From: a virus | Strand: one strand, 5' to 3' | Virus record (IMG/VR): IMGVR_UViG_3300028115_000111 | Location: 1-24,311 of that record | DNA length: 24,311 nucleotides | Shown here: in pieces, positions 10,069 to 24,037 of the stretch | How positions within the stretch are numbered: position 1 is the first letter of the stretch | Layout of the letters: the number at the start of each line of letters is the position of its first letter | Position numbers and translations under genes: made by a program | Notes under the pieces: model-generated | Seen by the model: the letters and a program-made list of their open reading frames with translations, nothing else | Database searches by the model: none | What the model was told of the DNA's origin: nothing

Positions 10069-10304
10069 GCGAAGAAAAAACAGAAGAACAAACTGCAGAA
10101 GAAGAAGCAGCTAAAAAGTGGGACTCACTCACTTTGGAGCAAAAGCTTAATGTTGTTGGAAATAATGCCATGTCTCGAAGCGAGGCGTATCAAAGACTTG
10201 AGTCTATTTTGGAGAAAATTGAGGCAATTGCCACCAAGGTAGAAAACCTAGAGCTTAAAAGTAAGCTTCAGGTAATCGAAGGTGGACAAGAATCTACTTC
10301 ATGA
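10065..10304 (+). CDS. Small acidic coiled-coil protein
   Basis: A 79-residue, mostly helical protein. The N-terminus is Glu-rich (SEEKTEEQTAEEEAAKKW). Residues 40-70 form a probable coiled coil (RLESILEKIEAIATKVENLE). It starts in an ATGA overlap with the preceding gene, and its stop lies at the base of a GC-rich hairpin pair. The function is unknown; it may be an oligomerisation partner of replication proteins. Confidence 0.65.
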   Translation: MSEEKTEEQTAEEEAAKKWDSLTLEQKLNVVGNNAMSRSEAYQRLESILEKIEAIATKVENLELKSKLQVIEGGQESTS

Positions 10305-10521: not shown

Positions 10522-10750
10522 GGTACAATATCTTGAGGCACAAAGGTTTCTCTTAACATCACTCCAAAACCCACAAAATGTACATCTAGTGGATCTAGAA
10601 GAATATGACGGATTCGGTGAATGTTCATGTGAGTATTTCCATTTTAAAATTGGCCCTAAACTAAAGGCAGGAAAAAAACCATTTAAAGTATGCAGACATA
10701 TAAGATCAGTGAGGCAGTTAATTCAGAAGAATTTACCCTCCCCTCAGTAA
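10505..10750 (+). CDS. SWIM-like zinc-finger small protein
   Basis: An 81-residue protein with Cys40-Cys42 (GECSCEYFHF), a basic loop (KLKAGKKPFK) and Cys63-His65 (VCRHIRSVRQ). This CxC...CxH arrangement is that of a SWIM zinc finger, a small domain linked to DNA or protein binding in recombination factors and other enzymes. Similar stand-alone SWIM-like proteins occur in phages beside replication genes. It overlaps the kinase gene by 61 bases. The zinc-site residues are all present; the partner and role are unknown. Confidence 0.7.
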   Translation: MSTQFEVQYLEAQRFLLTSLQNPQNVHLVDLEEYDGFGECSCEYFHFKIGPKLKAGKKPFKVCRHIRSVRQLIQKNLPSPQ

Positions 10751-11223
10751 TAGGACTTACCGGCCCCAAAGGTGTTGGTAAAACAACATTCGCGCAAAAG
10801 ATTGGCGGAGAAATTTTAAGTCTTTCTTTACCGATTAAGAAGATGCTGGAGGTAATCATACCCTCAAAGTATTTATACAACTTAAAGGAAGAACAGATTC
10901 CAGGGTTCCCCGAGGGCATAACAGCTAGGCACTGTTTACAGACCTTGGGGACTGAGTGGGGACGAGCGATGCATCCAGACATATGGATCGCTCCTGTTCA
11001 CGACAGGATCGCAGACCTAATAGCCTGGGCAAGTGCTACAGATCACCAATGTTTCAGATGCGTAGTAGATGACATCCGATTCCCGAATGAGGCAAAGATG
11101 ATCCACGATTTAGGGGGAGAGGTATGGAGAATCAAGAGAGATAGCTTTAAGCCATTAGAAGATAGTCACTCAAGTGAGTGTGGGTTACCAGAGGATCAAA
11201 TTGATAAGGAAATAATAGTTTGA
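10690..11223 (+). CDS. Deoxynucleoside monophosphate kinase
   Basis: A 177-residue P-loop kinase expected to convert dNMPs from degraded host DNA to dNDPs for phage DNA synthesis. GLTGPKGVGKTT (residues 22-33) is the Walker A. LQTLGTEWGRAM and DIWIAPVHDR are the substrate-site segments of T4 gp1-like/AAA dNMP kinases. CVVDDIRFPNEAKMI is the highly characteristic Walker B-like segment, and GGEVWRI follows. The length is a little shorter than usual for the family. The ATG lies inside the preceding gene (61-base overlap). The stop overlaps the next TTG start. Confidence 0.85.
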   Translation: MQTYKISEAVNSEEFTLPSVIGLTGPKGVGKTTFAQKIGGEILSLSLPIKKMLEVIIPSKYLYNLKEEQIPGFPEGITARHCLQTLGTEWGRAMHPDIWIAPVHDRIADLIAWASATDHQCFRCVVDDIRFPNEAKMIHDLGGEVWRIKRDSFKPLEDSHSSECGLPEDQIDKEIIV

Positions 11224-11687
11224 AACTAGAGCTTACAGAAGCAGAGTACAACCTCTGCCAAATCCTAGGCAGGATGAGGAGCCTTATAAGTAGAGGCACA
11301 GGCGTAAAGGATGCCAAGATGGGGAAACAAGATGGCTCGGAAGCAGATGTAATGGGAGCAGTAGCTGAGTATGCATTCGCTAAGAAGTTTAATTGCTTCC
11401 CTGACTTTGCTCCCGAAGCTAGAAGCGGAAGTTACGATGGAGTTCTTAAAGGGAATAGGTATGATATAAAATCATCTAACTACCCTAATGCTAGGCTTCT
11501 AAGTACACTTAAAGTTAACCAAGATATTGACTTCTATGTACTCGCAATAGTCGATGGAAGGTCGGTAGACATTAAAGGTTGGGCATGGAAGAAGGACTTG
11601 ATTCGACAAGAGAATATTAAGGACTTGGGTCATGGGAAAGGATACTGCCTAGACCAAAGGAATCTGAAGGCATTTAATGTTACTTAA
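11220..11687 (+). CDS. PD-(D/E)XK-fold nuclease-like protein
   Basis: A 155-residue protein starting with TTG at 11220, overlapping the kinase stop. GAVAEYAFAKKF (Glu), YDGVLKGNRYDIKSS (Asp...Asp-Ile-Lys) and the following strand FYVLAIVDG fit a minimal PD-(D/E)XK nuclease core, E...D...(D/E)xK. GWAWKKDLIRQENIK then resembles the C-terminal part of small phage nucleases that cut or nick DNA. The function could be host DNA degradation or a repair role. It is the last gene before the fibre gene. The fold is inferred from motif spacing only. Confidence 0.65.
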   Translation: MKLELTEAEYNLCQILGRMRSLISRGTGVKDAKMGKQDGSEADVMGAVAEYAFAKKFNCFPDFAPEARSGSYDGVLKGNRYDIKSSNYPNARLLSTLKVNQDIDFYVLAIVDGRSVDIKGWAWKKDLIRQENIKDLGHGKGYCLDQRNLKAFNVT

Positions 11688-11728
11688 TATACTTGATAAC
11701 AGATTCGCTTAAGCTTAAAATAAACCTT

Positions 11729-12787
11729 ATGGGAATTAAATACAATGGGGTCGACGTCACAAGTTTGACTTACAATGGGAATACGGTAAACGAACTAGTT
11801 TACAACGGATCATCAGTATACACTTCAGCCCCCGCCGGAGAACACTATGCATTTAACACAAGTAATCTTAGTGCATCACAGATAGACGACATCAATGCAG
11901 GAAATACTGTAAGTGTTCCTATTACTGACACTACCGAAAGTATTCGTTTCAGTCCTGCGACATTTGGTCTACAAAAGGAATTCACAGTGGAACCAGATGG
12001 AACCGTCTTCTTTCCAGGTCATGTAACTGCGAACAATGCTGGCTCGCCTGCTCAAAACAGTATCAACCTCCTTTCAAATAAAGGAATTGGAGAAGAGTAT
12101 ACCTCCGTGGGAAAACAAGTGCCAAAATCTGGATCTATTTGGTTTAAGCCAAACTTAGGCCTTGCTGATGGACTCGATCATAGTACGAGAAGCCAGTATC
12201 TCCTTTGCGATAGTCTGCGAATAAATGGGTATTTTTCTACCCTCAATAATGGCATTTTAGTATCAATGGAACCTTTGAGCAACTTTGCTAGTATGGGTTC
12301 TTATGACACCGTATTTTCGCTAACCTGCTATAAGTACAACCCTCACGGTTTTCGCACAACATTCACTGGGGCAGGTGTACAGATGAGTGGAAACAGTAAT
12401 GCCGTCACAGCAAAAGTTTTAAAAACACAATTAGCTAGTGATTTTGTCGTAGATTCATGGCACCATATGGCTTGGAGCATAGATCCTGGTAATTCACTTG
12501 GATCTATTGATCTATGGCTTGATGGACAATATGAGTCAAAGACAACTATAACTGCAGGTCTCACTGACGAGGAGAGGTTGAGACCTTACATAGGGAGAAC
12601 TGATACTACCTTTAACTGGTATAATAATGATGTTTTTATGATTGGAGGCAGACAGTATTACACTCTCAAGGGTGTAAACTTTCATGGTCACATTGGGCAG
12701 GTAGATGTATACACGAATAAAGCTTTAAGCGCTGCAGAAGCTTTATCTATCTACGACACTCAAAAAGGAACTTACGGGATAACTTAG
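11729..12787 (+). CDS. LamG/concanavalin-like phage fibre or receptor-binding protein
   Basis: A 352-residue protein. The N-terminal segment has three YNG motifs (IKYNGVDVTSLTYNGN and LVYNGSSVYT), a repeat often seen at the virion-attached end of phage tail or fibre proteins. The C-terminal ~200 residues look like a LamG/concanavalin A jelly roll: DSWHHMAWSIDPG, IDLWLDGQYES, RPYIGRTD, HGHIGQVDVYTNKALSAAEA and a closing LSIYDTQKGTYG. Such domains bind sugars or surface proteins, so host recognition is likely. A longer frame starts at a TTG (11693), but the ATG at 11729 directly before the YNG repeat is better. No ribosome site is obvious. Being in the replication operon rather than a tail operon is odd. 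Confidence 0.75.
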   Translation: MGIKYNGVDVTSLTYNGNTVNELVYNGSSVYTSAPAGEHYAFNTSNLSASQIDDINAGNTVSVPITDTTESIRFSPATFGLQKEFTVEPDGTVFFPGHVTANNAGSPAQNSINLLSNKGIGEEYTSVGKQVPKSGSIWFKPNLGLADGLDHSTRSQYLLCDSLRINGYFSTLNNGILVSMEPLSNFASMGSYDTVFSLTCYKYNPHGFRTTFTGAGVQMSGNSNAVTAKVLKTQLASDFVVDSWHHMAWSIDPGNSLGSIDLWLDGQYESKTTITAGLTDEERLRPYIGRTDTTFNWYNNDVFMIGGRQYYTLKGVNFHGHIGQVDVYTNKALSAAEALSIYDTQKGTYGIT

Positions 12788-12816
12788 TAACCTATTTATC
12801 TTGATTACTTTAGGTA

Positions 12817-12843
12817 AATTGGTTATTGTATTGATAACCAATT
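12817..12843 (+). promoter_or_regulatory. Perfect 10-bp inverted repeat between the fibre gene and a small gene
   Basis: AATTGGTTAT at 12817-12826 pairs perfectly with ATAACCAATT at 12834-12843 around a 7-base loop. It is AT-rich with no T-tract after it, and ends 6 bases before an ATG. It could be an operator or a hairpin that occludes the start of the next gene, more than a terminator. Confidence 0.5.
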
Positions 12844-12849
12844 ATCTAA

Positions 12850-13050
12850 ATGACGTATGCATTGACATATGGGGATTATGCTCCCGACACCCTTGGGGTG
12901 ACGGTACAGGATCGAATTCACTCGTTAGAGCAATGGCGTAACTTATGTATCGATGTCGAATCTGATGCTCGGCAAAAAGCCGTTCAAGCAACAGAAGATA
13001 TCAGAAGGCTCAAAGGCACTTCCCTAGAGGAAGATGATAATGAGCTATGA
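12850..13050 (+). CDS. Small hypothetical protein
   Basis: A 66-residue acidic, mostly helical protein (TLGVTVQDRIHSLEQWRNLC) ending in EEDDNEL. The ATG follows a 10-bp inverted repeat, and no ribosome site is visible. It is the last plus-strand gene before a convergent minus-strand block. The function is unknown. Confidence 0.6.
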   Translation: MTYALTYGDYAPDTLGVTVQDRIHSLEQWRNLCIDVESDARQKAVQATEDIRRLKGTSLEEDDNEL

Positions 13051-13092
13051 ACATGTATGAGCTGTGAACATATAATTCTATACATGGTTACA

Positions 13093-13398
13093 TTATTGAT
13101 TTTTATCGACGTATCGATCTAGTATAAAGCCTTTTTCCCTAGCCCAAGTCGGATTCCTGTGAATCCGATCATGGCATCCTCGGCATGTTGCAAGCCAAGT
13201 ACCTTCATCTAGGTAATACTTGCCTCTTCCCTTTCGGTGATGAATGTCTGTACTTTTTGATTTTGCACAGACCTCGCATAATGGCAATGTGGCTAGGAAG
13301 CTCGAGCGTTTCCTCGAATATTCTTTGGACTCTGCTTGCCTCTTCTTGGATACCCTCCTCATCGGCTTTTTTCTTTTTAGTGGAGTGTTTCTTTTCAT
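13093..13398 (-). CDS. HNH endonuclease-like protein
   Basis: A 101-residue protein with a basic N-terminus (TPLKRKKPMRRVSKKR) and an HNH-type core. Cys41-Cys44 (CEVC), the IHHRKGRG segment with His53-His54, and Cys72-Cys75-His76 (CRGCHDRIH) give two Cys pairs for structural zinc plus the catalytic His. NPTWAREKGFI closes the fold. Small phage HNH proteins of this type act as nickases linked to packaging, or as homing-like endonucleases. The absence of an intron or terminase beside it leaves the role open. It lies at the 3' end of a minus-strand block and overlaps the previous gene by 4 bases. Confidence 0.82.
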   Translation of the reverse strand: MKRNTPLKRKKPMRRVSKKRQAESKEYSRKRSSFLATLPLCEVCAKSKSTDIHHRKGRGKYYLDEGTWLATCRGCHDRIHRNPTWAREKGFILDRYVDKNQ

Positions 13399-13586
13399 TC
13401 TTCTGCATGTATATCTATGAAGTTCCTAAGGTGTGGCATAACAGCAAAGACATATTCATGTCCTAACTCATAAAGGTGAAAAAAGGTTCTCCAGTCGAAG
13501 TTTTGTCCTTTGACTTCCGCGATGATGAGCGTTTCTTCTGACTGCCATATGAATGTATGGATTCCTTTCTTAACCACTTGTTCCAT
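13395..13586 (-). CDS. Small hypothetical protein overlapping its upstream gene
   Basis: A 63-residue protein with a strongly protein-like pattern (GIHTFIWQSEETLIIAEVKG then FFHLYELGHEYVFAVMPHL), suggesting alternating beta strands. Its ATG lies inside the 13463-13780 gene, giving a 124-base overlap in another frame. The frame is open further upstream without an ATG, so a frameshift joining the two genes cannot be excluded. It ends in a 4-base overlap with the HNH gene. No known family is recognised. Confidence 0.55.
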   Translation of the reverse strand: MEQVVKKGIHTFIWQSEETLIIAEVKGQNFDWRTFFHLYELGHEYVFAVMPHLRNFIDIHAEE

Positions 13587-13780
13587 GCCTCTAACAATAG
13601 CGTAGCATCTGCCATATTGTCGGCTTTTGTAGGGATATTTGGCAATTTGCCTGTTTTGCTTAATCTAAGCCCGATATTTTGATAACCCATGAGTTCAGAG
13701 TAGTACTTTAAATAAACTTCCCCCTCCCCTTCTACTGCTCTTATTTCCCTGATGTAATCGGGAGCATTCAGACCCTTCAC
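13463..13780 (-). CDS. Hypothetical protein with Ser/Lys-rich C-terminus
   Basis: A 105-residue frame with a GTG start overlapping the upstream stop (GTGA). Residues 1-75 look like a normal folded domain (EVYLKYYSELMGYQNIGLRL and NIPTKADNMADATLLLEAW). The end (KKRSSSRKSKDKTSTG) is low-complexity and coincides exactly with the start of the overlapping gene, so it may be a by-product of the other frame. It is either a true dual-coding region or one gene split by a frameshift. The function is unknown. Confidence 0.55.
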   Translation of the reverse strand: MKGLNAPDYIREIRAVEGEGEVYLKYYSELMGYQNIGLRLSKTGKLPNIPTKADNMADATLLLEAWNKWLRKESIHSYGSQKKRSSSRKSKDKTSTGEPFFTFMS

Positions 13781-14031
13781 TTGGCGTCTAACTGTATACT
13801 AACATCATATAAACCCTTAAGGTCTTCGGGTGCATTTGCCTCAACCTCGAGCCTCAAGCAGTCCTTTACTGCCTCTTCTAGGCTATCAAATAGTCCAGTC
13901 TCGTTTCTCCACTGATCCCCTTCGAGAGATACCTCTCTGTCCATTACGAATACGGACAATCCACGACTCGTGATCATGGACTGACCACCCGATAGCTTTT
14001 CCGTAGTTAATTCTTCCCCAGCATTCATCAT
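13777..14031 (-). CDS. Hypothetical protein
   Basis: An 84-residue acidic protein. Its C-terminal half (GLFDSLEEAVKDCLRLEVEA) is helical and protein-like, and GLSVFVMDREVSL forms a strand pair. It starts at ATG 14029-14031, inside the cysteine-rich gene (146-base overlap). Internal ATGs at 13977 and 13944 would shorten the overlap. The stop overlaps the next GTG by a few bases. The function is unknown. Confidence 0.5.
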   Translation of the reverse strand: MMNAGEELTTEKLSGGQSMITSRGLSVFVMDREVSLEGDQWRNETGLFDSLEEAVKDCLRLEVEANAPEDLKGLYDVSIQLDAK

Positions 14032-14302
14032 AAACTAAGTTCGAGAAAGGAGTGTAGCATCCACACCCTTGCTCTGAGTTACCGTAAGGTCTACACCTCT
14101 TAAGTTCGGGATCGAATACAGGGCAGTTATAACATACCTTGTACCTCCTCATCCATTCAAGCTTCTCGGGCTTTTTGGCAAGATACCAATAAGGCAACAG
14201 CTTTATAGTAAGCCTTGCTAAAACTAGTATTGCAGAAGGTAGGCTAATAGACCCACGCTCCTCCCTAACAACTCTTAAGAATTCCTTAATCCTTTTCACC
14301 AA
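13886..14302 (-). CDS. Cysteine-rich phage protein
   Basis: A 138-residue protein with a basic, hydrophobic N-terminus (SISLPSAILVLARLTIKLLP), possibly an amphipathic or membrane-touching helix. A compact cysteine cluster follows: YKVCYNCPVFDPELKRC, then GCGCYTPFSNLVYDECWGR. Six cysteines here could bind zinc or an Fe-S cluster. Similar CxxCPxFDxxxxxC...GCGCY proteins occur in tailed phages beside structural genes; the function is unknown. The C-terminal 45 residues overlap the next gene in another frame and are less protein-like. It overlaps the large upstream gene by 17 bases, so it is probably in the same late operon. Confidence 0.65.
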   Translation of the reverse strand: MVKRIKEFLRVVREERGSISLPSAILVLARLTIKLLPYWYLAKKPEKLEWMRRYKVCYNCPVFDPELKRCRPYGNSEQGCGCYTPFSNLVYDECWGRINYGKAIGWSVHDHESWIVRIRNGQRGISRRGSVEKRDWTI

Positions 14303-16577
14303 TCAAAGGCGCATCATTGTCAAATATATCCAAGTTTTCGCTCCCGGTAGAAGTAGTAGGTAATGCAGGAGCAGCTTTAGTTTTTCTAACAGATCCATTA
14401 GCTAACTTGTCTATAATGTTTTCTATGCTCTCGACTTGGGCAGTCTTCTTTACCTTAGGTTTTTCACCACCCTGTTTTTCTTCAAATTTTTCGGCTAAAG
14501 AACTTCTGTCTACATCAGTAGATCCAATCGGGTCATCAGCAGTACCTGAGCTAGGCCCTGCACCAGGAGAATTACCCATACCTACGAGACCCCTAATTTG
14601 ATCATCGGACAATAAACTACTGCCACCAGTTTGAGCAATAGCGTCAGCAAGTGTGGGAAAGTCAGAATCATTAAGGAGCGATTTTTGACCACTAGCAGTA
14701 GACATATCATACTCATTGCCTGCATATCCTACCGTAGACCCGCTCACTGAACTGATGCCCTCCCTAGAGTTTCCTGAGCCAAGTACCCTGCTTATCTTCT
14801 TTCTCTGTGGAGCTTGACGACTAGGCATCCTGCGACCCCCACCGCCTCCACCGCCTCCGGAACCACCACCAACACTAAGTGATATATCATCCACCCCAAA
14901 TACATCTTTAGCAATCGCAACAGGAACGCTTATCGCATTACCTGCTAATTCAAAGGGAGCAGCAACCAATCCTTTTAATCCTTGCTTCGCAACGTCCCAA
15001 TTCCCTGAAAGCCCACCTGCAACCGTTTTGGTAAGGTTATCGGGTACATTGAAAACAGTGCCTAATAAACTATCTCGATCACCACTACCAAAAAGATAAT
15101 CACCTGTGTTGTCTACGATGTTACCAAAGCTCGAGAAGCCTCTACCTATGGGGTTGTTACCCAAAGCACCACCTATGGCATCCAAGCCACCTCCAATGCC
15201 ATCAGAAAGCCAATTAACTGGCTTAAGGAGCATTCCGGCTCCGTTACGAAGATAATCAGTGAATGTGTCTACACCCTGGATGACCGATCCAGCTGCGTTC
15301 GGTGTAGCCTGAAAACTCATTCCCTGTAAAGCAGGGTTAGTCCTCATGTCTACTGGCTCACCATAAATATTAAATTTGCCACCTGTATTGCCATATATCT
15401 GGCTATTCTTTGCAGCATTGCCTTCGTTAATGTAACCAGCACTGAGAGAGTTTAGCTTACTCTCTTCATAATCCGGATCACCAGAGAACAAGAACTTATT
15501 GCTGAAATCAGTGCCTACTAGACCGACCGAGCCGCCCTCACCTGCGAGCGCAGATGATGGCTGATCTGCTATATCAATGCTAAATGCATCCAAGCCTAAA
15601 TCTTCAGCAGCAAGAATTTCATTTCTTAAACTAGTCAGATTAGTAATTTCTTCATCTGAAAGATCCCCTCTATACTCAATTAACTGATCCTCAATCTGCC
15701 TAAGGGCATTCTGTGAATCAAAGTCAGTTACTGCACCATCTTCATTAATTTCAATCGCTCCAACACTCTTAAGAATATCTAATTCTTTTTCATCGAATGT
15801 GCTAACATCTTGTGCTGCAAACTGAGTAGATGCATCGTAATTACTAAAGTCGTCAGAATTAATATCTACTCCGTCAAGATAATCGAAGGTCTGCCCGATA
15901 TCTAGACCTGCATCAAAATCACCTCCGTATGAATTGTCTATGATTGATTGACTAAAGTCAGTATCGATGGCGTCTGTGCTTAAATCAATATATGTGTTGG
16001 GGTCAAAGTAGTCCGAATCGTATGTGTCTAGAAAGTCACTTACATTATCCGAGTAGTTGTAGTTATCTAATGCTACTGAATTTGCATAGTTTGATGCAGT
16101 ATCAAAGGCATCATAAGTGTTTATCGTATCTAGGTAATCAAAGGTATCAAATGATGGTGTGTATGTGTCGTATGAGGGAGCCGAATAAGTATCGGTGTAG
16201 TTGTATGATGAACCATAATCACTTCCATAATTATCGTTAAAGTCCCTAAAACGATCAGATGCATTAAAATCCATATTCTTATCTGCCTCCTGCTGAGCTA
16301 CCCTTGCTGCCTCTTGCTGAGCTTGCTCTGTTGCAATACGCTTAGCTTCCTCTGCTGCCTGTAGTCTTGCTTGCTCTGCTGCTTGGTTTTTTGCATGGTC
16401 TATTGCTGCCTGTCTTGATGCCTCTATTACTTGCTGCCTAGCAGCCTCGTTGGCTGCTCTTTGTGCAGCTTCTCGAGCAGCATCGCTTGCTGCTTGCTGC
16501 TGTGCCTTCGCCTGTGCTGCAATTCTGGATGCCTCTGCCCTGGCTATAGCTCGTGCCTGTTCTATTGCTGGATTCAT
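14286..16577 (-). CDS. Large low-complexity virion-type protein: Ala-rich coiled coil, acidic-aromatic tract, Gly-rich segment
   Basis: A 763-residue protein, the largest in the window. Residues 1-105 form an Ala/Gln/Arg/Glu-rich helical coiled coil (AEEAKRIATEQAQQEAARVA). Residues 114-263 hold 150 residues without a Lys, Arg, His, Cys, Met or Trp and with almost only Asp as charge, studded with Tyr and Phe (YTDTYSAPSYDTYTPSFDTF). Residues 264-560 are more ordinary, with Gly/Ala-rich hydrophobic stretches (GIGGGLDAIGGALGNNPIGR). A Gly run at about 569-582 is followed by a basic, Ser-rich tail. No enzyme motif is seen. Size, modular low complexity and an upstream late-type minus operon suggest an internal virion, head-fibre or tail protein, but the family is not recognised. 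The ATG is preceded by no clear ribosome site. Confidence 0.7.
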   Translation of the reverse strand: MNPAIEQARAIARAEASRIAAQAKAQQQAASDAAREAAQRAANEAARQQVIEASRQAAIDHAKNQAAEQARLQAAEEAKRIATEQAQQEAARVAQQEADKNMDFNASDRFRDFNDNYGSDYGSSYNYTDTYSAPSYDTYTPSFDTFDYLDTINTYDAFDTASNYANSVALDNYNYSDNVSDFLDTYDSDYFDPNTYIDLSTDAIDTDFSQSIIDNSYGGDFDAGLDIGQTFDYLDGVDINSDDFSNYDASTQFAAQDVSTFDEKELDILKSVGAIEINEDGAVTDFDSQNALRQIEDQLIEYRGDLSDEEITNLTSLRNEILAAEDLGLDAFSIDIADQPSSALAGEGGSVGLVGTDFSNKFLFSGDPDYEESKLNSLSAGYINEGNAAKNSQIYGNTGGKFNIYGEPVDMRTNPALQGMSFQATPNAAGSVIQGVDTFTDYLRNGAGMLLKPVNWLSDGIGGGLDAIGGALGNNPIGRGFSSFGNIVDNTGDYLFGSGDRDSLLGTVFNVPDNLTKTVAGGLSGNWDVAKQGLKGLVAAPFELAGNAISVPVAIAKDVFGVDDISLSVGGGSGGGGGGGGRRMPSRQAPQRKKISRVLGSGNSREGISSVSGSTVGYAGNEYDMSTASGQKSLLNDSDFPTLADAIAQTGGSSLLSDDQIRGLVGMGNSPGAGPSSGTADDPIGSTDVDRSSLAEKFEEKQGGEKPKVKKTAQVESIENIIDKLANGSVRKTKAAPALPTTSTGSENLDIFDNDAPLIGEKD

Positions 16578-16726
16578 TCATCAATGCTGTTACTTAGTTT
16601 ACTAGGTTTCTTTCATTCGGTCAAATCCTATAAACCCGAATCGGATCAGATCCCAGAAAGTTCAGAAAGGGTGTATATAATTGTATAAGACGCCAGGTTG
16701 CTTCCCCCCGGCACCCCCCTTTGTAA

Positions 16727-16790
16727 CCTAATGGTCATTAGGTAACACTTATGCCATAAGTCATTGATAATCAATGGGTATGCATGGCAT
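16727..16790. promoter_or_regulatory. Nested dyad symmetries in a divergent promoter region
   Basis: CCTAATG-GT-CATTAGG (16727-16742) is a 16-bp dyad. CATTGAT-A-ATCAATG (16762-16776) is a 15-bp dyad, flanked by outer arms ATGCCAT (16751-16757) and ATGGCAT (16784-16790). The region lies between divergent genes starting at 16577 (minus) and 16846 (plus). The arrangement looks like operators for a dimeric regulator controlling both directions. No confident -35/-10 pair is visible. Confidence 0.55.
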
Positions 16791-16845
16791 TAAATAGTAT
16801 GTCAATTATGGCGCAAATATTAATCAATCAAATATCAAAATAACA

Positions 16846-17277
16846 ATGAGCAACCTATCCTTAATTCAATCCCATACCCAAGCACGTCGTGAAGTCTTAA
16901 ATAAAAACGGCAAAGTAATACGACACGAAGTTGTATTCGGCAAGCAAGGTGCTAGCGCTTCAGAAATAAAAGCAAACCTTCGCAAAGCAAATCCGCTCTT
17001 GAAAGGCAAAGCTTTAACTGCAGCCGTTCATAATGTTCTAAGCGGTGAGAAAACCATGCGAGACGCGGTTACAATTGCAATGGTAAACAAAGCTTTGCAA
17101 GACGGCGTGACTGACAAGATCTCTGAGACGTCTAATAAGCTAAATATCTCTATCAATAAGCCCAAGATCACAAAGCAAGACGTGATTAATAAACAAGCTA
17201 CAAGGCTAGATCAACTCGAGAGAATTGTAGCAAACCTTACCCCCGAGCAACGCGAGGCAATGGGCTTAGAATTCTAA
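16846..17277 (+). CDS. Hypothetical protein, isolated gene
   Basis: A 143-residue protein with a basic, helical sequence (QARREVLNKNGKVIRHEVVF, then SEIKANLRKANPLLKGKALT) and a C-terminal coiled-coil-like part (TRLDQLERIVANLTPEQREA). No motif is recognised. It is alone, between a divergent operator-like region and a long non-coding stretch. Its stop codon is the first unit of a TAACC tandem repeat. It could bind nucleic acid because of its basicity and could control the flanking operators, but this is inference. The leader CAAAATAACA before the ATG has no Shine-Dalgarno. Confidence 0.65.
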   Translation: MSNLSLIQSHTQARREVLNKNGKVIRHEVVFGKQGASASEIKANLRKANPLLKGKALTAAVHNVLSGEKTMRDAVTIAMVNKALQDGVTDKISETSNKLNISINKPKITKQDVINKQATRLDQLERIVANLTPEQREAMGLEF

Positions 17278-17304
17278 CCTAACCTAACCTAACCTAACCT
17301 AGCC
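17275..17304 (+). repeat. TAACC tandem repeat
   Basis: Five perfect copies of TAACC start with the stop codon of the upstream gene and are followed by one variant, TAGCC. Another CCTAACCTAGG lies 30 bases further. A pentamer tract of this kind slips easily and could be a length-variable spacer. It stands at the start of the non-coding region. Confidence 0.75.
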
Positions 17305-17884
17305 ATGATATATAAACCACCTTAGCAAACTAAGCCTAACCTAGGCTAGCGTGAGACGCACAGATTGTGCTTAGTGTCTCGGTGAGACGTGCAACGCATC
17401 AATGCCTAACTTCGTTTTTTAGTTCTCATGGTTTTCTGCTTTTCCATTTCAAAAAAGTACCTGTGCCAAGGGTGAAAAACTGAGGCTGTCAATTCGGGAT
17501 TACGGACGTAGACCATGCTCTAGCTCTTACAAAGCTATGCACATGTGAGCGGTTCGATTTCGAGCAGGCAAGTACCATACAAGGCGAATGTGTAGCCTAG
17601 TCACAAAGCGAGTAGCCAACCGAAGTGGTTCGGGGTGAGTCGTGGAAGCAGACGAAGCGTGTAAGGAGCCGTGAGGATATTCATGTATGCGAAAGAGTGT
17701 GTAATCTGATCGATAGGAGGCGTGCCTCGGATTTAGTTTGTCAATGACTACTCGGAACAAACTAGGTCTCTCTGTCATGGAGCGAAGGGGTTAGAATAGT
17801 CAACACATGGAAGCAGTATAGTATGTATTCCCTAGAGGATGTTCATACTTATCGCAATGCAACCCGATGTAGCTCATCCGTTAG

Positions 17885-17925
17885 AACTACGTGTGAACTA
17901 CGTCATAACTACGTTAAAACTACGT
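17885..17925 (+). repeat. AACTACGT iterons, 11-bp period (cluster 2)
   Basis: Four perfect copies of AACTACGT begin at 17885, 17896, 17907 and 17918, exactly 11 bp apart. The three-base spacers between them are GTG, CAT and TAA. The same octamer and spacing occur at 4631-4660. The cluster lies 20 bases before an intrinsic terminator and inside the candidate RNA. It is a good candidate for a binding array of a phage initiator, partition or regulatory protein. Confidence 0.8.
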
Positions 17926-17944
17926 CACCTAGACGTAAACTTTC

Positions 17945-17990
17945 AGCCCATGTCCGAGGCTTATTCCTTGGGCATGGGCTTTACTTTTTA
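17945..17990 (+). terminator. Strong intrinsic terminator before the accessory operon
   Basis: A 15-bp stem (17945-17959 with 17966-17980; arm AGCCCATGTCCGAGG), fully paired when two G-T pairs are counted, with the 6-base loop CTTATT and then TTACTTTTTA. It ends about 40 bases before the start codon at 18032, so it could separate the upstream RNA from the operon or act as an attenuator. Confidence 0.85.
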
Positions 17991-18031
17991 AATTCGACTC
18001 AACGTTAACCAAACAACGAAAGGAAATAACT

Positions 18032-18172
18032 ATGAACTACTTAACATTCCTCGCCATATGTGGTGAGTTCTTTATTGATCCCGATATTGCCATGGAAAAT
18101 GGCATGGTTGTGGATGCAATCAAACGTAACGATGAAGCTGAAGTGAGGAGGGTCTTACATGAAGAATGCTAA
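18032..18172 (+). CDS. Small hypothetical protein, first gene of the accessory operon
   Basis: A 46-residue peptide, MNYLTFLAICGEFFIDPDIA followed by a helical charged end (DAIKRNDEAEVRRVLHEEC). A good ribosome site (AAAGGAAA) stands 7 bases before the ATG. It overlaps the next gene by 14 bases, with that gene's AGGAGG site inside its last codons, so the two are translated as a pair. The function is unknown. Confidence 0.65.
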   Translation: MNYLTFLAICGEFFIDPDIAMENGMVVDAIKRNDEAEVRRVLHEEC

Positions 18173-18275
18173 TGACCCTCAGTTCATGGGTAGTACCATG
18201 GACAAAATTGTTTTAGGTGGAGGCTTCCTAGTCTGCATCATCGCGGTAGTACTAGAAATGTGCTGCATAATCTAA
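18159..18275 (+). CDS. Tiny single-pass membrane protein
   Basis: A 38-residue peptide with a perfect AGGAGG site 8 bases before its ATG. Residues 17-38 (IVLGGGFLVCIIAVVLEMCC) form a single hydrophobic helix with a Gly patch, after a short polar N-terminus. It could be an inner-membrane peptide acting on host membrane proteins, or a holin-like peptide, but there is no positive evidence for either. It overlaps the upstream small gene. Confidence 0.65.
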   Translation: MKNANDPQFMGSTMDKIVLGGGFLVCIIAVVLEMCCII

Positions 18276-18299
18276 AAGTAACCTATATATCTATATAAC

Positions 18300-18737
18300 A
18301 TGGAAAATTTATTTACAAAATTAGAGGATGGAGAAGACAGAGGATACTTCGGATCTATCTTCATAGATGATGGGAGTGGTAGGTGTTATGTAAAGACTCC
18401 TTACTTCAAGGTTAAGTTAGATGCCGAGAAGTATACTCGTGAGTTATGTGAAGCTAACGGAGTAAAGTATCAATACGAAACCAACATATGGTATCACCGA
18501 GGGGAATGGGATTATACACGCAAGCTCAAGGAAATCCTTGGTAAGGATGTACGTGGGATGGTGTATGACTATGTGGGTGATGGTTGGCAGATTGATCTAG
18601 ATCATGGGCGTATGGGATTCTTACATAAAGATGATGCCCCATGGGATGGAGTTAAAGTTGGTGATGAACTAATGTTCCATGTCCGCGACTATAACCCTAC
18701 CAAACTTCAACTAAACGTAACCTATTATACTAAATAA
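18300..18737 (+). CDS. Hypothetical protein with S1/OB-like C-terminal domain
   Basis: A 145-residue protein. Residues 84-142 (VRGMVYDYVGDGWQIDLDHG, RMGFLHKDD, VKVGDELMFHVRDYN) have the strand order and hydrophobic pattern of an S1 RNA-binding OB fold: G-x-V, then a GFLH signature, then VGD, then a final strand. The N-terminal part (1-80) has mixed strands and Trp/Tyr and is unknown. If correct, it may bind phage or host RNA. No clear ribosome site; the ATG follows ATATAAC. Confidence 0.6.
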   Translation: MENLFTKLEDGEDRGYFGSIFIDDGSGRCYVKTPYFKVKLDAEKYTRELCEANGVKYQYETNIWYHRGEWDYTRKLKEILGKDVRGMVYDYVGDGWQIDLDHGRMGFLHKDDAPWDGVKVGDELMFHVRDYNPTKLQLNVTYYTK

Positions 18738-18741
18738 CATT

Positions 18742-19512
18742 ATGAGTGAAAATAATATCAAACTTGAAGGTGCTGAGCTTGATGCCTATCTTGCTAAGCG
18801 CTTTCCTTCTACCAACCTACCTAAGCTAATTGATGAACTAGGCAGTCCAAGTGCCTTCGATTCTTGGAGCAACTACATGGGCGAGAAGCCTAGTGATACC
18901 TTGTATTGTGTACTCGGTAGGAATCGTGACTCATCTATGCTCACCAATTCTAATTGGGATTGTGCGGTGCAGATGTTTGAAGATGCCGAGCTACCCTATG
19001 ACATTACTCGTGTGGGTCATTGGTTATGTGGGTGGATTGAGTATCTATCTGTAGATATCAATGACAAGGAGGCATTCAAGATGGGTGAGGAGATTGAAGC
19101 ATCGCTAGCCAATTATCCTTGCCTAGATGAAGAAGATCACTCGAGGCGTGAGTACGAGGATCTCCTTCAACTGATTGAATTGGAGTACGATGATGACTTC
19201 AATGTCGGTGAGGACTTCGATGATTGGGATGACATTGCATTCTATCTCAATGAGAATGGGTACTACCATAGCGAGGGTTGCTACCCATCATCTGCCGAGA
19301 TTCAGAAAGCTATGTGGGAATGCTATGTCAAGGATAGGGTCATCGATATTGCTAGGGATCTAGCAGTCGGTGAGTCAATCATCGAAGGATCATGGGAGAT
19401 ATCACGCATCACTGATGCCGAGGCTACTGCACACTTCGACTGCGAGGATGAGCCTCGCATGCTCTATGTCTTTAGGGATCACCCTAATCAAATGAAATTA
19501 ACACTCAACTAA
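18742..19512 (+). CDS. Acidic hypothetical protein
   Basis: A 256-residue, strongly acidic protein with many Trp and Tyr residues (FDSWSNYMGEKPSDTLYCVL, VGHWLCGWIEYLSV, DFDDWDDIAFYLNENGYYHS). No enzyme motif is visible. Its overall acidity and aromatic content suggest a protein-binding or nucleic-acid-mimic surface. It starts with ATG 4 bases after the previous stop (TAACATTATG), without a Shine-Dalgarno, and is followed by an AAGGAGG site for the next gene. Confidence 0.7.
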   Translation: MSENNIKLEGAELDAYLAKRFPSTNLPKLIDELGSPSAFDSWSNYMGEKPSDTLYCVLGRNRDSSMLTNSNWDCAVQMFEDAELPYDITRVGHWLCGWIEYLSVDINDKEAFKMGEEIEASLANYPCLDEEDHSRREYEDLLQLIELEYDDDFNVGEDFDDWDDIAFYLNENGYYHSEGCYPSSAEIQKAMWECYVKDRVIDIARDLAVGESIIEGSWEISRITDAEATAHFDCEDEPRMLYVFRDHPNQMKLTLN

Positions 19513-19521
19513 GGAGGTAAC

Positions 19522-20244
19522 ATGACTGAAGAATACAAATACAAACCTTACCCAAAGATGACCTTGCAAACCAAGGCTATCAAACTTACACGCAAGATGC
19601 TTAGGCACTTAGACTATGTCAGTTCATCACAAGCTCGTGACTTAAGTGCCGAGGAGTGCATGGATGTTATCAATGACTATATCGTTGAGTTCCAATACTA
19701 CATTGGGACTACTTGTGGGGATAAAGCCACTCATTGGTTTGGCTTTCCATATGATGAGCATCTACTCGAGGCTCACAAGGATCGCAATGCCGATGATAAA
19801 CTAGATGATGCCTTAATCATGGGCAACGATGCCATACTCGAGGGTGAGTGTGGCTTGTTCAAGTGGGTCAACAACCTCATTGCTTATGGTGAGAGTTGTT
19901 TCGGTGACCCTCAGTACTTAGCTAGTTCCTTTCACCCCAATCATCTAGATTTTCATGGTGAAAAGGTTCGATTGCTTATGGAGGAAAGGCTCGGGCTTGT
20001 AGCCAAGCGCTTTCCAGAGTGGGCAACATGGAATAAAGATACTGAAGGTTGGGTCTACACTGCTATTGATGCTCGAGGGGCTGAGTATGGAGAGTGGTGG
20101 TTCTCTATCGGCAGTGAGTATATCGAGGTAACCAAGTGGTTTAGTAGAGCTAATAGCAAGGGGAGTGGGAGTGGAGGCAAAGCCTTCAATATGAAAGTAC
20201 CAATCGGTGACTTTTACACCTTCTACAAGGAGGTGGTAGCATGA
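19522..20244 (+). CDS. Hypothetical protein
   Basis: A 240-residue protein with a strong AAGGAGG site 5 bases before its ATG. The N-terminal half is helical and acidic (KAIKLTRKMLRHLDYVSSSQ, ECMDVINDYIVEFQYYIG). A middle segment has CFGDPQYLASSFHPNHLDFH. The C-terminal half is Trp-rich with likely strands (EYGEWWFSIGSEYIEVTKWF), ending KVPIGDFYTFYKEVVA. No family is recognised. It overlaps the next gene by four bases (ATGA). Confidence 0.7.
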   Translation: MTEEYKYKPYPKMTLQTKAIKLTRKMLRHLDYVSSSQARDLSAEECMDVINDYIVEFQYYIGTTCGDKATHWFGFPYDEHLLEAHKDRNADDKLDDALIMGNDAILEGECGLFKWVNNLIAYGESCFGDPQYLASSFHPNHLDFHGEKVRLLMEERLGLVAKRFPEWATWNKDTEGWVYTAIDARGAEYGEWWFSIGSEYIEVTKWFSRANSKGSGSGGKAFNMKVPIGDFYTFYKEVVA

Positions 20245-20441
20245 TTGAGACTAATGCTCAAATGGATCAGAAGGTGGATAACTATGTGTACTACCTAGGC
20301 AAGATAGCCAAGCACAAGTATCCAAACATTAAGCCTTGGCAAATAGCTATCGTCACCCATTCCAAGCGTGGGCTTATCAATACATTCAACTACGAGGATG
20401 CTCGTGAGTACTACCATAAAGTAACCAAGAATAATAAATAA
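20241..20441 (+). CDS. Small basic hypothetical protein
   Basis: A 66-residue protein, translationally coupled to the preceding gene (ATGA overlap; site AAGGAGG 8 bases upstream). It is Lys/His/Tyr-rich (DNYVYYLGKIAKHKYPNIKP) with one predicted strand (WQIAIVTHSKRGL), and is unusually basic for this operon. It may partner an acidic neighbour. The function is unknown. Confidence 0.65.
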   Translation: MIETNAQMDQKVDNYVYYLGKIAKHKYPNIKPWQIAIVTHSKRGLINTFNYEDAREYYHKVTKNNK

Positions 20442-20444
20442 CAT

Positions 20445-20891
20445 ATGAATCCTACATACTACATAGAGACAATATCTGAGACATTAGCCGAAGGGTTAAA
20501 TGAGAATCTTATGCTCATCGAACTTGGGTGTATTCATAAAGATTACATGCACGACAAGCATGTCAAGGGCATGGAGTTGGTAACCGAATACTCTCACCAT
20601 AATCGATTGATGGATTCGATTGATCGGATCTTTGATTACTTCGCTTGGCAAGAGTGTGGGCTGAATGGTGATTGGTCTGTGCAAGCATACCATTACGGAT
20701 TCAGAAGACCTAACCTTTGGGAAGGTGACTACTATGTAACAGACCAAGAGGATGGAACATTCGATGTAGTCAAGTACTACCCTGACAGAGAAGAGGACTG
20801 CGTGGAATCCATCTATCGTGGATTCAGTTCACTAGAAGATGCAAAGGCTTACACCAAAGGGCATGCGGGCATTCATTATCACAACAAATAA
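20445..20891 (+). CDS. Hypothetical protein
   Basis: A 148-residue acidic protein that begins with a helical region (YIETISETLAEGLNENLMLI). His, Trp and Tyr-containing segments follow (DYFAWQECGLNGDWSVQAYH, WEGDYYVTDQEDGTFDVVKY), and it ends in SLEDAKAYTKGH. The C-terminal part has the strand-helix look of small phage proteins that display a value and a range, but no domain can be named. The start codon follows AATAACAT without a Shine-Dalgarno. Confidence 0.65.
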   Translation: MNPTYYIETISETLAEGLNENLMLIELGCIHKDYMHDKHVKGMELVTEYSHHNRLMDSIDRIFDYFAWQECGLNGDWSVQAYHYGFRRPNLWEGDYYVTDQEDGTFDVVKYYPDREEDCVESIYRGFSSLEDAKAYTKGHAGIHYHNK

Positions 20892-20906
20892 AGGAGGAAA
20901 ATAATT

Positions 20907-21221
20907 ATGATACAAACAATAACACAAGGACTATTCGTTAACGCATTCGATCAGCGAGCAAGGGGAAGCTCTTGGTCTCTAAGAGGACTCGAGGCTCTAT
21001 ATGATTTCCTCGAGGACGTAGACCCTAACTATGAGTTAGATGTAGTGGCACTTGATTGCCAATACTCTGACTACAATTCGATAGGTGATCTGCAAAATGA
21101 TTACGAGCATCTCTTTGATGAAGATGAAGAGTATGATGATGATGAAATCATTGATATCTTAAGTAATCATACGACAGTCATTAGCTATGATGGTGGAGTA
21201 GTTATAAATACGGAGTTCTGA
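20907..21221 (+). CDS. Hypothetical acidic protein
   Basis: A 104-residue protein with an AAAGGAGG site 8 bases before its ATG. Residues 1-50 contain SSWSLRGLEALYDFLEDVDP, followed by strands (ELDVVALDCQYSDYNS) and a very acidic middle (EHLFDEDEEYDDDEIIDIL). The pattern resembles phage anti-restriction proteins of the acidic type only in general charge, so I do not assign that. The stop overlaps the next ATG (TGATG). Confidence 0.65.
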   Translation: MIQTITQGLFVNAFDQRARGSSWSLRGLEALYDFLEDVDPNYELDVVALDCQYSDYNSIGDLQNDYEHLFDEDEEYDDDEIIDILSNHTTVISYDGGVVINTEF

Positions 21222-21394
21222 TGACTATCGAAGTATCAATTATCAAGGACAAGCAACTCGTGTATTCTTTCAGCTACATAGCTAAGAAGTCAGACTCTGA
21301 TGCACACGAGAGGGCTACACAAATAGCAGTAAACCAAGCAAAGAAGCATGGGATAACCTATGACTTCATTAACACTAAACTAAAGGAGGACTAG
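21221..21394 (+). CDS. Small hypothetical protein
   Basis: A 57-residue protein whose ATG overlaps the preceding stop, so translation is coupled. It has two likely strands (TIEVSIIKDKQLVYSFSYIA) and one helix (SDAHERATQIAVNQAKKHG), a beta-beta-alpha shape. It is basic overall, in contrast to its acidic neighbour. Its end codes for the AAAGGAGG site of the next gene. The function is unknown. Confidence 0.65.
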   Translation: MTIEVSIIKDKQLVYSFSYIAKKSDSDAHERATQIAVNQAKKHGITYDFINTKLKED

Positions 21395-21398
21395 AATT

Positions 21399-22106
21399 AT
21401 GTATGTAAAAAATTCATTCACAAGTGGTGGGCATTGTATCTATGAGGACGATGACTATGTAGCTATCGTTACTTGGAAGTCAGCTAATGCTAAGACAGGT
21501 AACATGGCTCAGATATGGATCTTAAATAGATTCACCAATCCTGTTGAGTCTGTTGCAACAGGACTAGATGCTAAGACTAACTGCAATGGATGCCCATTCG
21601 CTGATGGCAATGGGTGCTATGTCAATGTAGGGCAAGCACCTATGGCTGTGTACAAGTCATACCATAAGGGTAGCTATCCTTTCCTTGCCCTTGGTGCATA
21701 TAAGGTAGCATTCCGTAATCGGTATGTGAGGTTCGGTGCTTATGGTAACCCTAGTATCATTCCCTTGCAGAAGATTAAGATGGTGACTGACCATTGTGCC
21801 GGTTGGACAGGATACTTCCATGATTGGCATATGATGTCCCCTACCCTAGCTACTGAGTATGGTAAGTACTTTATGGCTAGTACTGAGACGGAGGATTCTC
21901 GCAAGGCTGCAAAGTCACTTGGTCTTAGATACTTCCATGTCTCACCTGTACGCCCAATCGATACAATCGAATGCCTATCCGATACGCATGGCAAGGAGTG
22001 TAAGGATTGTGGACTGTGTGATGGCAACAACAAGAACGCTAAGTCTGTGTGGATCAACCCACATGGTGCTAAGAAAAACAAAGCTATCGCTATGGCGTTA
22101 GCGTAA
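21399..22106 (+). CDS. Phage protein with two cysteine clusters (metal or Fe-S binding candidate)
   Basis: A 235-residue protein. NCNGCPFADGNGCYVNVGQA holds Cys62, Cys65 and Cys73. KECKDCGLCDGN holds Cys201, Cys204 and Cys207, with Cys192 just before. Between them are VRFGAYGNPSIIPL and CAGWTGYFHDWH, with conserved-looking Gly, Trp and His. From memory, related proteins with the same NGCP...CYV and RxGAYGxP segments are frequent in tailed phages (annotated DUF7227-like), with unknown function. Two Cys groups could hold one or two Fe-S clusters or zinc. The strong AAGGAGG site, 9 bases before the ATG, suggests high expression. Confidence 0.75.
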   Translation: MYVKNSFTSGGHCIYEDDDYVAIVTWKSANAKTGNMAQIWILNRFTNPVESVATGLDAKTNCNGCPFADGNGCYVNVGQAPMAVYKSYHKGSYPFLALGAYKVAFRNRYVRFGAYGNPSIIPLQKIKMVTDHCAGWTGYFHDWHMMSPTLATEYGKYFMASTETEDSRKAAKSLGLRYFHVSPVRPIDTIECLSDTHGKECKDCGLCDGNNKNAKSVWINPHGAKKNKAIAMALA

Positions 22107-22115
22107 CCTAGATAT

Positions 22116-22565
22116 ATGAATAACATGAGTGATCCAAGTAACATTAAACTTAAAAGGATTCCAGGCTTACACGCTGTGGAAAGAAAACCAATCAAGTCAC
22201 AAGACCCCGAGATGGGTGGTAGCATGAGCAATGGTGAGTATCTCAGATACCTTTGCAACTACACTAACCCGATGATCGGGCCATTCATCATCCAGGCAAT
22301 CAATGAGTTTGCCGATCAAGTGATTGCCAAGGAGGAAGAGATACTAGCCGAAGAGAAGAAGCGACTAGAGCATGATGGATCTCGTGAGTCATTCACTATC
22401 CCTCTCATATCTAATGAGCTATGGATTGAGTGTGCCAAGTTCCTTCGCAAGCAGAACTACTACCACTATGAGGAGGGAGGCACGGCATCAGATGAGGGTG
22501 AGGATGAGGATGAGGAGTCGGGCATCGAGGTAGCAGAAGCAAGGGAGGGTATACACAATGACTGA
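22116..22565 (+). CDS. Hypothetical protein with acidic C-terminal tail
   Basis: A 149-residue protein. The N-terminus has KRIPGLHAVERKPIKSQ. The middle is helical (GPFIIQAINEFADQVIAKEE), and the tail is acidic (SDEGEDEDEESGIEVAEARE). Start codons at 22116 and 22125 both fit; neither has a clear ribosome site. It overlaps the next gene by 8 bases. The function is unknown. Confidence 0.65.
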   Translation: MNNMSDPSNIKLKRIPGLHAVERKPIKSQDPEMGGSMSNGEYLRYLCNYTNPMIGPFIIQAINEFADQVIAKEEEILAEEKKRLEHDGSRESFTIPLISNELWIECAKFLRKQNYYHYEEGGTASDEGEDEDEESGIEVAEAREGIHND

Positions 22566-22764
22566 GTGCGAGTGCAAGTGCAAGCCGAGTAATAGATGGG
22601 CGATAGTTCTTACCTGCCCATTCGATGGTAGCCTCAAAGGCGTGATCGGTATGTTCAAAGAGCAAGAGGGTGCCTTCGATTATGCAGCATCAGACAAGCA
22701 GTGTAGCTCTGATTACCATTACTTCGTAACCCAATACTTCGACAAGGAGGATGAAGACAGATGA
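22558..22764 (+). CDS. Small hypothetical protein with N-terminal Cys motif
   Basis: A 68-residue protein starting MTECECKCKPSNRW, with three closely spaced Cys residues (CECKC) and two further Cys residues in the body (Cys20, Cys49). AIVLTCPFDGSLKGVIGMF suggests strands and a loop, and the end is acidic. The Cys arrangement could bind a metal, but no family is recognised. It is coupled to both neighbours by short overlaps. Confidence 0.6.
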   Translation: MTECECKCKPSNRWAIVLTCPFDGSLKGVIGMFKEQEGAFDYAASDKQCSSDYHYFVTQYFDKEDEDR

Positions 22765-23012
22765 GTGCTGAAGAATTAGCCAAAAAACTAACTGGAACCA
22801 TTGAGTATCTCTTCGATAGGTGGAGAGATGAATGGATGTACGAGGATTGGTCTGACTATGAAGATCATGCTCGCAAAGCAGTAGAGAAGGATGGCGGTGA
22901 GTTCATCCATTTCAAAAAGAAACCTTTCGTCCTCCGATTCAAGAAGGACGATATAACCCTTGATATTAAATGCAATACAAGGGAACTAAGTGTAACCCAA
23001 ATAACCAAATAA
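22761..23012 (+). CDS. Hypothetical protein
   Basis: An 83-residue protein overlapping the previous stop (ATGA), with AAGGAGG 10 bases upstream. A helical, Trp-rich first half (LFDRWRDEWMYEDWSDYEDH) and a second half of strands (FIHFKKKPFVLRFKKDDITL). The pattern suggests a small alpha/beta fold. The function is unknown. Confidence 0.65.
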   Translation: MSAEELAKKLTGTIEYLFDRWRDEWMYEDWSDYEDHARKAVEKDGGEFIHFKKKPFVLRFKKDDITLDIKCNTRELSVTQITK

Positions 23013-23030
23013 CATAAGAAAGATATAACC

Positions 23031-23825
23031 ATGAGTGATCAAAATAACCAAGAAACCGCAGTAGTTAACGCAAGCTCTGAAGAGCTACTTAAACAAGCCG
23101 AGGAAGCGAGGATAAGAGAAGCCAACGAATCGAGGCTCAGGGAAATAGCCCAAGCTGAGAAGGCATGCCGAGAGTATGGCTTGACTCTTACCGCAGAGGA
23201 ACGCAAGGGCATCGAGGATTACATCGACGCACAAGATAATGCTTCTAGAAAGTACAACGACCTAGAGGAAGCATACGATGAACTAGAGTCTTGGTACTCC
23301 GAAAAGGCTTGTGAGTATAATTGGGCTAGAGACAAATTCACGAGTGCATGTGAAGAACTAGAGCAGAGTAGAGAAGAGGTAGATGGTATACTTCAGAAAT
23401 TCCAGTATACACTAGAGAAAGAGACATCCGATAAGATTACCCCAGACCCTCTTAGGCAACTACTTGTCAATGCAACGGAGTCAGGGGAAGGAGACTTCGA
23501 ATTCTGTGAGCCTGATGCTATAGAGGAGTGCCTTGATGTCTCATCACCCGATAGTGACCTTTGCGATGCCGAGAATCTTAGCTGTCACTTTAGGGATTTA
23601 GCAAAACTACTACCCGAGGAAACAATCCCCGAGGAACTCAAGGATGAGATTAAGGCATGGGGCAACAACTATACCGTGTTTCAGTTGCACACCGAGCTTC
23701 TATCTTGGGAAAATCATAGTGCAAGAGATGAGGCTATACGCTTTGCCCTCACCTACTACGAGAGCAGTTCCACATGGGACAAGATGTTCGAAGAGTTAGC
23801 AGCAGAGTTTAATATTCAGGGATAA
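23031..23825 (+). CDS. Acidic coiled-coil hypothetical protein
   Basis: A 264-residue, Glu-rich protein. Residues 15-60 and 70-135 are long helical coiled-coil segments (EELLKQAEEARIREANESRL and YNDLEEAYDELESWYSEKAC). The second half is also helical, with a Cys-containing segment (CLDVSSPDSDLCDAENLSCH). No enzymatic motif is visible. It could act as a scaffold or a binding partner of host proteins. A 47-base GC/AT hairpin follows the stop. Confidence 0.7.
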   Translation: MSDQNNQETAVVNASSEELLKQAEEARIREANESRLREIAQAEKACREYGLTLTAEERKGIEDYIDAQDNASRKYNDLEEAYDELESWYSEKACEYNWARDKFTSACEELEQSREEVDGILQKFQYTLEKETSDKITPDPLRQLLVNATESGEGDFEFCEPDAIEECLDVSSPDSDLCDAENLSCHFRDLAKLLPEETIPEELKDEIKAWGNNYTVFQLHTELLSWENHSARDEAIRFALTYYESSSTWDKMFEELAAEFNIQG

Positions 23826-23831
23826 CAAACA

Positions 23832-23879
23832 CCCCCCTAGTAGTAACCTAGTTCTCTAGGTTGCTACTACGGTTGGGGG
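23832..23879 (+). other. Long hairpin between genes of the accessory operon
   Basis: TAGTAGTAACCTAG (23838-23851) pairs with CTAGGTTGCTACTA (23856-23869) with one T-G pair around loop TTCT. Outer CCCCC (23833-23837) pairs with GGGGG (23875-23879). No T-run follows, so it is probably not a simple intrinsic terminator. It may block exonucleases, be an RNase site, or weaken transcription into the next genes. Confidence 0.65.
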
Positions 23880-23902
23880 CGATGATAGGAAGGATCAAAT
23901 AT

Positions 23903-24037
23903 ATGAATATACAAGAGAAACTAGAAGCTGAAGCTGAATCTATGTGGAGAAAGAATGAACTTACCACAGAGGAGTACTACGCAGCTAGGCACTTCATCAG
24001 AAGATACACAGAACTACTAAAGGAGGAAAATAAATGA
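23903..24037 (+). CDS. Small helical hypothetical protein
   Basis: A 44-residue peptide (NIQEKLEAEAESMWRKNELT then YYAARHFIRRYTELLKEENK), probably one or two helices with mixed charge. The possible AAGGA site lies 11 bases upstream. Its last codons form the AAAGGAGG site of the next gene, whose ATG overlaps its stop (ATGA). The function is unknown. Confidence 0.6.
   Translation: MNIQEKLEAEAESMWRKNELTTEEYYAARHFIRRYTELLKEENK

Follow-up and report, generated by a model that had tools for sequence, protein, structure and literature searches.

Which product, if any, is specified by the 0.7-kb stretch that separates a small orphan gene from an accessory operon in the phage DNA analyzed here? The window, the whole stretch under analysis, is a 24-kb IMG/VR record (24,311 nt). 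In an earlier note, made from its letters, a new large structured RNA of a temperate phage was proposed for this locus. The proposal was followed up by structure prediction, by comparison with related phages and by searches for known RNAs.

The noncoding block of the window

The locus was delimited by the following features.

16846 to 17277, plus strand: 143-aa orphan ORF, type A; relatives in L004 (81-83%), G007 (50%) and G009 (30%)
17278 to 17990, plus strand: putative large structured noncoding RNA of ~713 nt; no reading frame, relatives at the same position, no Rfam match
17289-17295/17788-17794 and 17303-17310/17773-17780, plus strand: predicted long-range closing helix; mean pair probability 0.86 and 0.97
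17729 to 17769, plus strand: 13-bp hairpin; mean pair probability 0.97
17945 to 17989, plus strand: intrinsic terminator with a 15-bp stem (17945-17980) and a T tract, from the fold and from terminator prediction
18033 to 24037, plus strand: accessory operon, the genes being small and for the most part without a known family, from the ORF list

The block had been placed at 17330-17990 in the earlier note. Its end was kept and its start was moved to 17278, directly after the ORF stop. The described lack of a coherent reading frame was borne out, the longest stop-free stretches (76 codons on the plus strand, 87 on either strand) being no longer than in shuffled sequence (mean 85). Similarly, 17330-17990 is locally GC-richer as described, the excess being mild (0.461 versus 0.423 for the window). 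Where at least six hairpins had been counted, at least eight local helices with a mean pair probability of ~0.8 or higher were predicted, including those at 17615-17636, 17729-17769, 17820-17849, 17866-17904, 17921-17937 and 17945-17980; the last of these is the 15-bp terminator already recognized. The operon, said to begin 40 bases past this terminator, does adjoin it, with its first ATG at 18033, ~45 bases after the T tract. No known RNA class had been recognized, and a search of the window against Rfam 15 was in agreement (no covariance-model match, E up to 10).

Folding energies of the window block were compared with those of shuffled sequences in two runs, giving z-scores of -1.35 and -1.37. 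Taken alone, the fold of the window is thus not beyond chance, and the reality of its RNA rests on the relatives. Gene direction and GC skew switch near the block. The accessory operon was compared with Pfam, and nothing scored over the cut-off; among the operon genes tested, the clearest match was that of the gene at 21399-22106 to phrog_2554 (unknown function, E 3e-41).

Relatives of the locus

Searching with the orphan protein yielded L004, an 81-83%-identical relative, and two contigs that do not differ from the window. Relatives of the exonuclease encoded at 6203-7285 were used to reach whole records. Contig L004 ends 96 nt into the RNA; over these 96 nt it is 96% identical to the window, and over the ORF-bearing stretch ~78%. 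The sole stem change in the 96 nt, C17359-G17369 to U-A, is compensated. This change, the only testable one of its kind, lies in the hairpin 17358-17370, nested in the first of two pairings that had been named for GTCTC at 17376-17380. Both partners, GAGAC at 17353-17357 and at 17384-17388, are located as described. That the two pairings are exclusive states of a switch is possible and drew no support.

A noncoding block of 1.10-1.26 kb was found at the same place in G006 and G007 (identical over the locus), G009, G010 and G015. The locus runs in these relatives from a divergent long gene through a conserved start region that holds an inverted repeat, a small ORF, the noncoding block and a strong terminator to the accessory operon. 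Position and order are common to five distinct phages (the window, G006/G007, G009, G010 and G015), and only these five distinct full-length sequences entered the family comparison. Against 24 dinucleotide shuffles each, z-scores of -4.0 (G007), -3.9 (G009), -7.7 (G010) and -6.1 (G015) were obtained for the relatives' blocks, all four folding far more stably than chance would give. Rfam 15 covariance models gave no large-RNA match in the four relatives' loci (E up to 5). A conserved protein frame was searched for among the relatives and none was shared, and compensating changes, the test that the earlier note had suggested, were present. The proposal of a new large structured RNA is supported by this comparison, since position, terminator site, 3′ domain and compensated pairs are common to the relatives.

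Used as queries, the orphan protein, two proteins of the downstream operon and the exact DNA pattern of the 5′ element returned only near-identical or truncated contigs and chance matches. The orphan protein had no match in GTDB genomes. For the window block, only short weak matches were obtained among isolate phages and plasmids; the G010 block gave no match in isolate phages, and the G007 block none in plasmids. On these comparisons, the blocks apparently represent an undescribed family of large folded RNAs (0.7-1.26 kb) in related uncultured phages.

Some other features of the genomes were recorded. Inside the start of the integrase ORF of the window (3551-4477), positions 3596-3643 hold the 3′ part of a tRNA gene, comprising an anticodon arm (CATGC-ATGACAC-GCATG) that reads GAC (valine), the T arm and the acceptor end; it is probably the attachment site of the phage in a host tRNA-Val gene. 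In L004, compared with window 5141-17368, the replication module has the opposite orientation with respect to the structural and RNA part. An indel near the start of the orphan ORF of L004 (10001 region) deprives it of an in-frame ATG, which may reflect an alternative start, a frameshift or an assembly error. In record G010 (75.6 kb), L059 1-212 and the end of L060 share nearly the same 210 bases; the record could represent a complete genome that is circular or has terminal redundancy.

Start region and exchange of the ORF with the RNA 5′ half

Two elements were located upstream of the ORF.

16656 to 16700, plus strand: conserved block with a TATAAT-like element, GGAAAGTTCAGAAA-GGTGYATATA; at the same place in the window, L004, G005-G010 and G015
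16727 to 16742, no strand assigned: inverted repeat CCTAATG-GT-CATTAGG, a possible operator; in all relatives, re-paired in G015 (CCTTATG/CATAAGG)

We infer from its conservation and TATAAT-like element that 16656-16700 is the promoter region of an ORF-RNA transcript; a sigma-70 scan made no call on this block. The block could serve the divergent minus-strand gene too.

In G010 and G015, the ORF is of a second type (type B), unrelated to type A. The two type B ORFs share 51% identity and the RNA 5′ halves of the two phages 63%. As the type B ORF and the RNA 5′ half are common to G010 and G015, and type A is carried by the window, L004, G007 and G009, the ORF and the 5′ part travel together. 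Between G009 and G010, identity is 96% in the 2.5 kb that lead up to the ORF start and 94.5% in the final 451 nt of the RNA; between those stretches, their ORF, ribozyme and RNA 5′ half are unrelated. At the level of sequence, these two phages have swapped ORF, ribozyme and RNA 5′ half as one cassette, with the 3′ domain kept. Contigs L004, G005, G008 and G016 break within or just before the RNA locus, which would fit mixed ORF-RNA alleles in one population. AlphaFold models of both ORF types were poor (pLDDT 64 and 46).

The conserved 3′ domain

A 3′ domain made up of a signature (GRTGTTCAY-N5-YCGCARNGCAA), ACGT hairpins and the terminator is common to all five sequences, the hairpins preceding the terminator in every relative as they do in the window. 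The window elements are as follows.

17833 to 17869, plus strand: conserved 3′ signature; 86% identity with G007
17886 to 17937, plus strand: four AACTACGT repeats with 11-bp spacing, located by position, then a hairpin TACGTC/GACGTA (probability 0.98)

The terminator region (17946-18025) is 82% identical to that of G007. In IMG/VR, the exact signature was found in this family only, apart from chance matches inside long ORFs. Following inspection, 23 matches in GTDB genomes and four extra viral matches were dropped, every one lying inside a long ORF. In the alignment of the 3′ domain, 15 of the 56 predicted pairs are altered on both sides, a count reached by none of 500 shuffles, and controls with slid partners gave lower scores; as this alignment had also supplied the structure, and the terminator was included, these changes are support and not proof. 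The ACTACGT direct repeats of the domain (17886-17925, 11-12-bp spacing) also occur at 4634-4664, near the replication module, and similar sites are present in G008-G011; repeats at both places are possible operators of one phage regulator.

Ribozyme motifs at the 5′ border

Short distances past the ORF stop, motifs of self-cleaving ribozymes were detected in the relatives, every Rfam score among them lying below the gathering cut-off. In G009, an HDV-like motif begins 31 nt past the stop (RF02682, E 0.0043; RF00094, E 0.07; in 201 nt). It consists of P1 GCCAAGC/GCTTGGT, P2 ATGGAAA/TTTCCAT, P3 GCC/GGC, GGGTAAC and CTAA, and has the HDV double-pseudoknot core of P1, P2 and P3 with the catalytic C in J4/2. 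A descriptor of this core matched G009 as its sole hit in 1.24 Mb and nothing in 3.7 Mb of shuffled sequence.

In G010, ~50 nt past the stop, a match to twister-P1 was obtained (RF03160, 32.6 bits, E 8.2e-6 in 143 nt; gathering 67.2, P1 weak). The corresponding element of G015 keeps the twister-like core letters GGCAAGCCC...GTGAGTCA and is re-paired relative to G010 in P2 (ACGU/ACGU to ACAA/UUGU) and P4 (AUGG/CCAU to GCGG/CCGC); it gave no match to the Rfam twister model and, judged by core and re-pairing, is probably a twister. In G006/G007, the core letters and all three stems of a type-I hammerhead are present 12 nt past the stop, CCCCA-CTGACGA-[TCGAC/GTCGA]-GAAA-[CCCACC/GGTGGG]-TA-TGGGG, with a U.U at 10.1/11.1. 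This element had no Rfam match. A hammerhead descriptor run on the 1.24 Mb returned G006/G007 and one weaker match (stems 4/4/5, bacterial contig L104), and none in 3.7 Mb of shuffled sequence. Three ribozyme classes (HDV-like, twister and hammerhead-like) thus appear, by these motifs, to occupy one border slot of one RNA family.

In the window, the slot is taken by another element.

17278 to 17380, plus strand: 5′ element with TAACC repeats, an AGCCTA/TAGGCT hairpin and a GAGAC-GCACA hairpin; in the relatives' ribozyme slot, 96% identity in L004 (96 nt)

Within 17272-17430, no model of a known ribozyme (E up to 10) and neither the hammerhead nor the HDV descriptor gave a match. Fitting the element by eye to twister, twister-sister, hairpin, pistol, hatchet, HDV and permuted hammerhead was unconvincing. 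It is a doubtful proposition that this element is a self-cleaving ribozyme of an unrecognized class and that, together with this, the ORF and the RNA 5′ half form an allele-matched protein-RNA pair exchanged as one cassette.

Proposed working and alternative explanations

The preferred reading, which we give a probability of about two in three, is that 17278-17990 specifies a phage RNA that is large, folded and free-standing, belongs to a new family, is co-transcribed with the ORF, is cut by a ribozyme in the relatives and ends at the terminator. At the level of sequence, the comparison establishes that the family exists and is noncoding, that its members have the 3′ domain in common, that the relatives carry ribozyme motifs and that the cassette was exchanged. 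Transcription would start upstream of the small ORF, placing ORF and RNA on one transcript. In the relatives, the border ribozyme would then cut the RNA from the upstream mRNA, leaving a 5′-OH end that is expected to resist 5′-end-dependent decay. In Nus antitermination, boxA lets polymerase traverse long untranslated RNA, as in rRNA operons. A boxA-like site is present early in the RNA of G007, G010 and G015 (background 0.003 per 250 nt; rare elsewhere in the genomes) and may let polymerase cross the long untranslated RNA in the same manner; none was found in the window RNA. As the window variant is shorter and has neither boxA nor a known ribozyme, its 5′ end may come from a host nuclease or an unrecognized ribozyme. 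The terminator would fix the 3′ end. The product would build up as a stable structural RNA whose putative allele-matched partner is the product of the small ORF; in the RNA, the 5′ part varies and is inherited with the ORF, and the 3′ domain is conserved.

The block might instead be, as the earlier note also considered, a very long regulated leader of the operon, in which boxA/Nus-type antitermination or refolding sets terminator read-through; we consider this unlikely, while giving it more weight than the remaining alternatives. The terminator stands ~45 bases before the operon, and no clear or consensus promoter was called between them, so some read-through is favored and the leader explanation is kept alive. 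Boxes of the boxA type in three relatives and the constant position of the RNA before the operon in all relatives also speak for a leader. However, 0.7-1.26 kb with strong global folding is large for a leader, a leader has no need for a cutting ribozyme upstream of its structured part, and the window lacks boxA. Moreover, the block swaps with the upstream ORF, whereas the downstream operon diverges separately. A leader role and a free-standing RNA could coexist.

That the locus is a control or replication region acting at the DNA level, with repressor or iteron sites and a structured look arising by chance, is very improbable. The AACTACGT repeats with 11-bp spacing (17886-17925), their recurrence near the replication module (4643-4660) and the nearby switch in gene direction and GC skew are of the kind expected for it, but the repeats span only ~40 bp, and the strong strand folding of the relatives, the two-sided pair changes and the one-strand ribozyme motifs at the 5′ border are RNA signals. 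Hardly credible at all is a small protein gene concealed in the 3′ part of the RNA. Translated in one and the same frame, the signature does give LEDVHTYRNATRC for the window and LEDVHVCRNATRC for G007, with 13 similar residues (window ORF 17823-18008). There is no common start or stop, though: the window frame crosses the terminator, and the G009/G010 frame stops a few codons past the signature. In 5/5 sequences, GTT, CGC and GCA have invariant third bases while the linker residues vary freely, and the longest frames equal those of shuffles; on this frame evidence, the coding reading of the signature was rejected.

Relation to known phage RNAs and ribozymes

GOLLD is a large noncoding RNA of phages and prophages with a conserved 3′ part, a variable 5′ part and an unknown role (PMC12286853). 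The present RNA resembles it in the same division, G009 and G010 sharing 94.5% identity in the 3′ part and none in the 5′ part, an analogy and not membership. It differs in giving no model match (E up to 5-10), in its place downstream of a small ORF and upstream of an accessory operon, in having no tRNA gene nearby in the window and in the ribozyme motif at the 5′ border in relatives of the window phage. Similarly, ROOL, a phage and prophage RNA (659 nt in one example) with an elaborate fold (PMC12286853), is comparable in size, in being phage-encoded and in its elaborate fold, but no ROOL model matched and the window has no tRNA island. The family is probably of the GOLLD/ROOL kind and separate from both, distinguished by the ribozyme slot and the ORF-RNA cassette.

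Phage theta ribozymes are mostly located at tRNA 3′ ends (PMC10879173). The G009 element has the HDV core and no clear P4, like minimal HDV-like ribozymes (PMC10879173), but borders a large RNA on its 5′ side and is not at a tRNA end. For prophage hammerheads flanking genes, processing of long transcripts was proposed (PMC3088659), and the gene contexts shared by twister and hammerhead ribozymes are the basis of RAGATH searches (PMC11061315). Here too, different classes are found in comparable gene contexts, with the difference that three of them apparently share one slot bordering one RNA family.

Phages are known to encode large ornate RNAs, GOLLD and ROOL among them, and what these do is not known. 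New handles are offered by the family described here: a built-in site of 5′ processing for which several ribozyme classes are used, an ORF-RNA cassette that recombines as a whole and a short, conserved 3′ signature. If ribozyme classes do replace each other at one site, it would be the cut, and not a particular ribozyme, that is under selection. Were the cut selected, the question of what purpose phage ribozymes serve would become directly testable.
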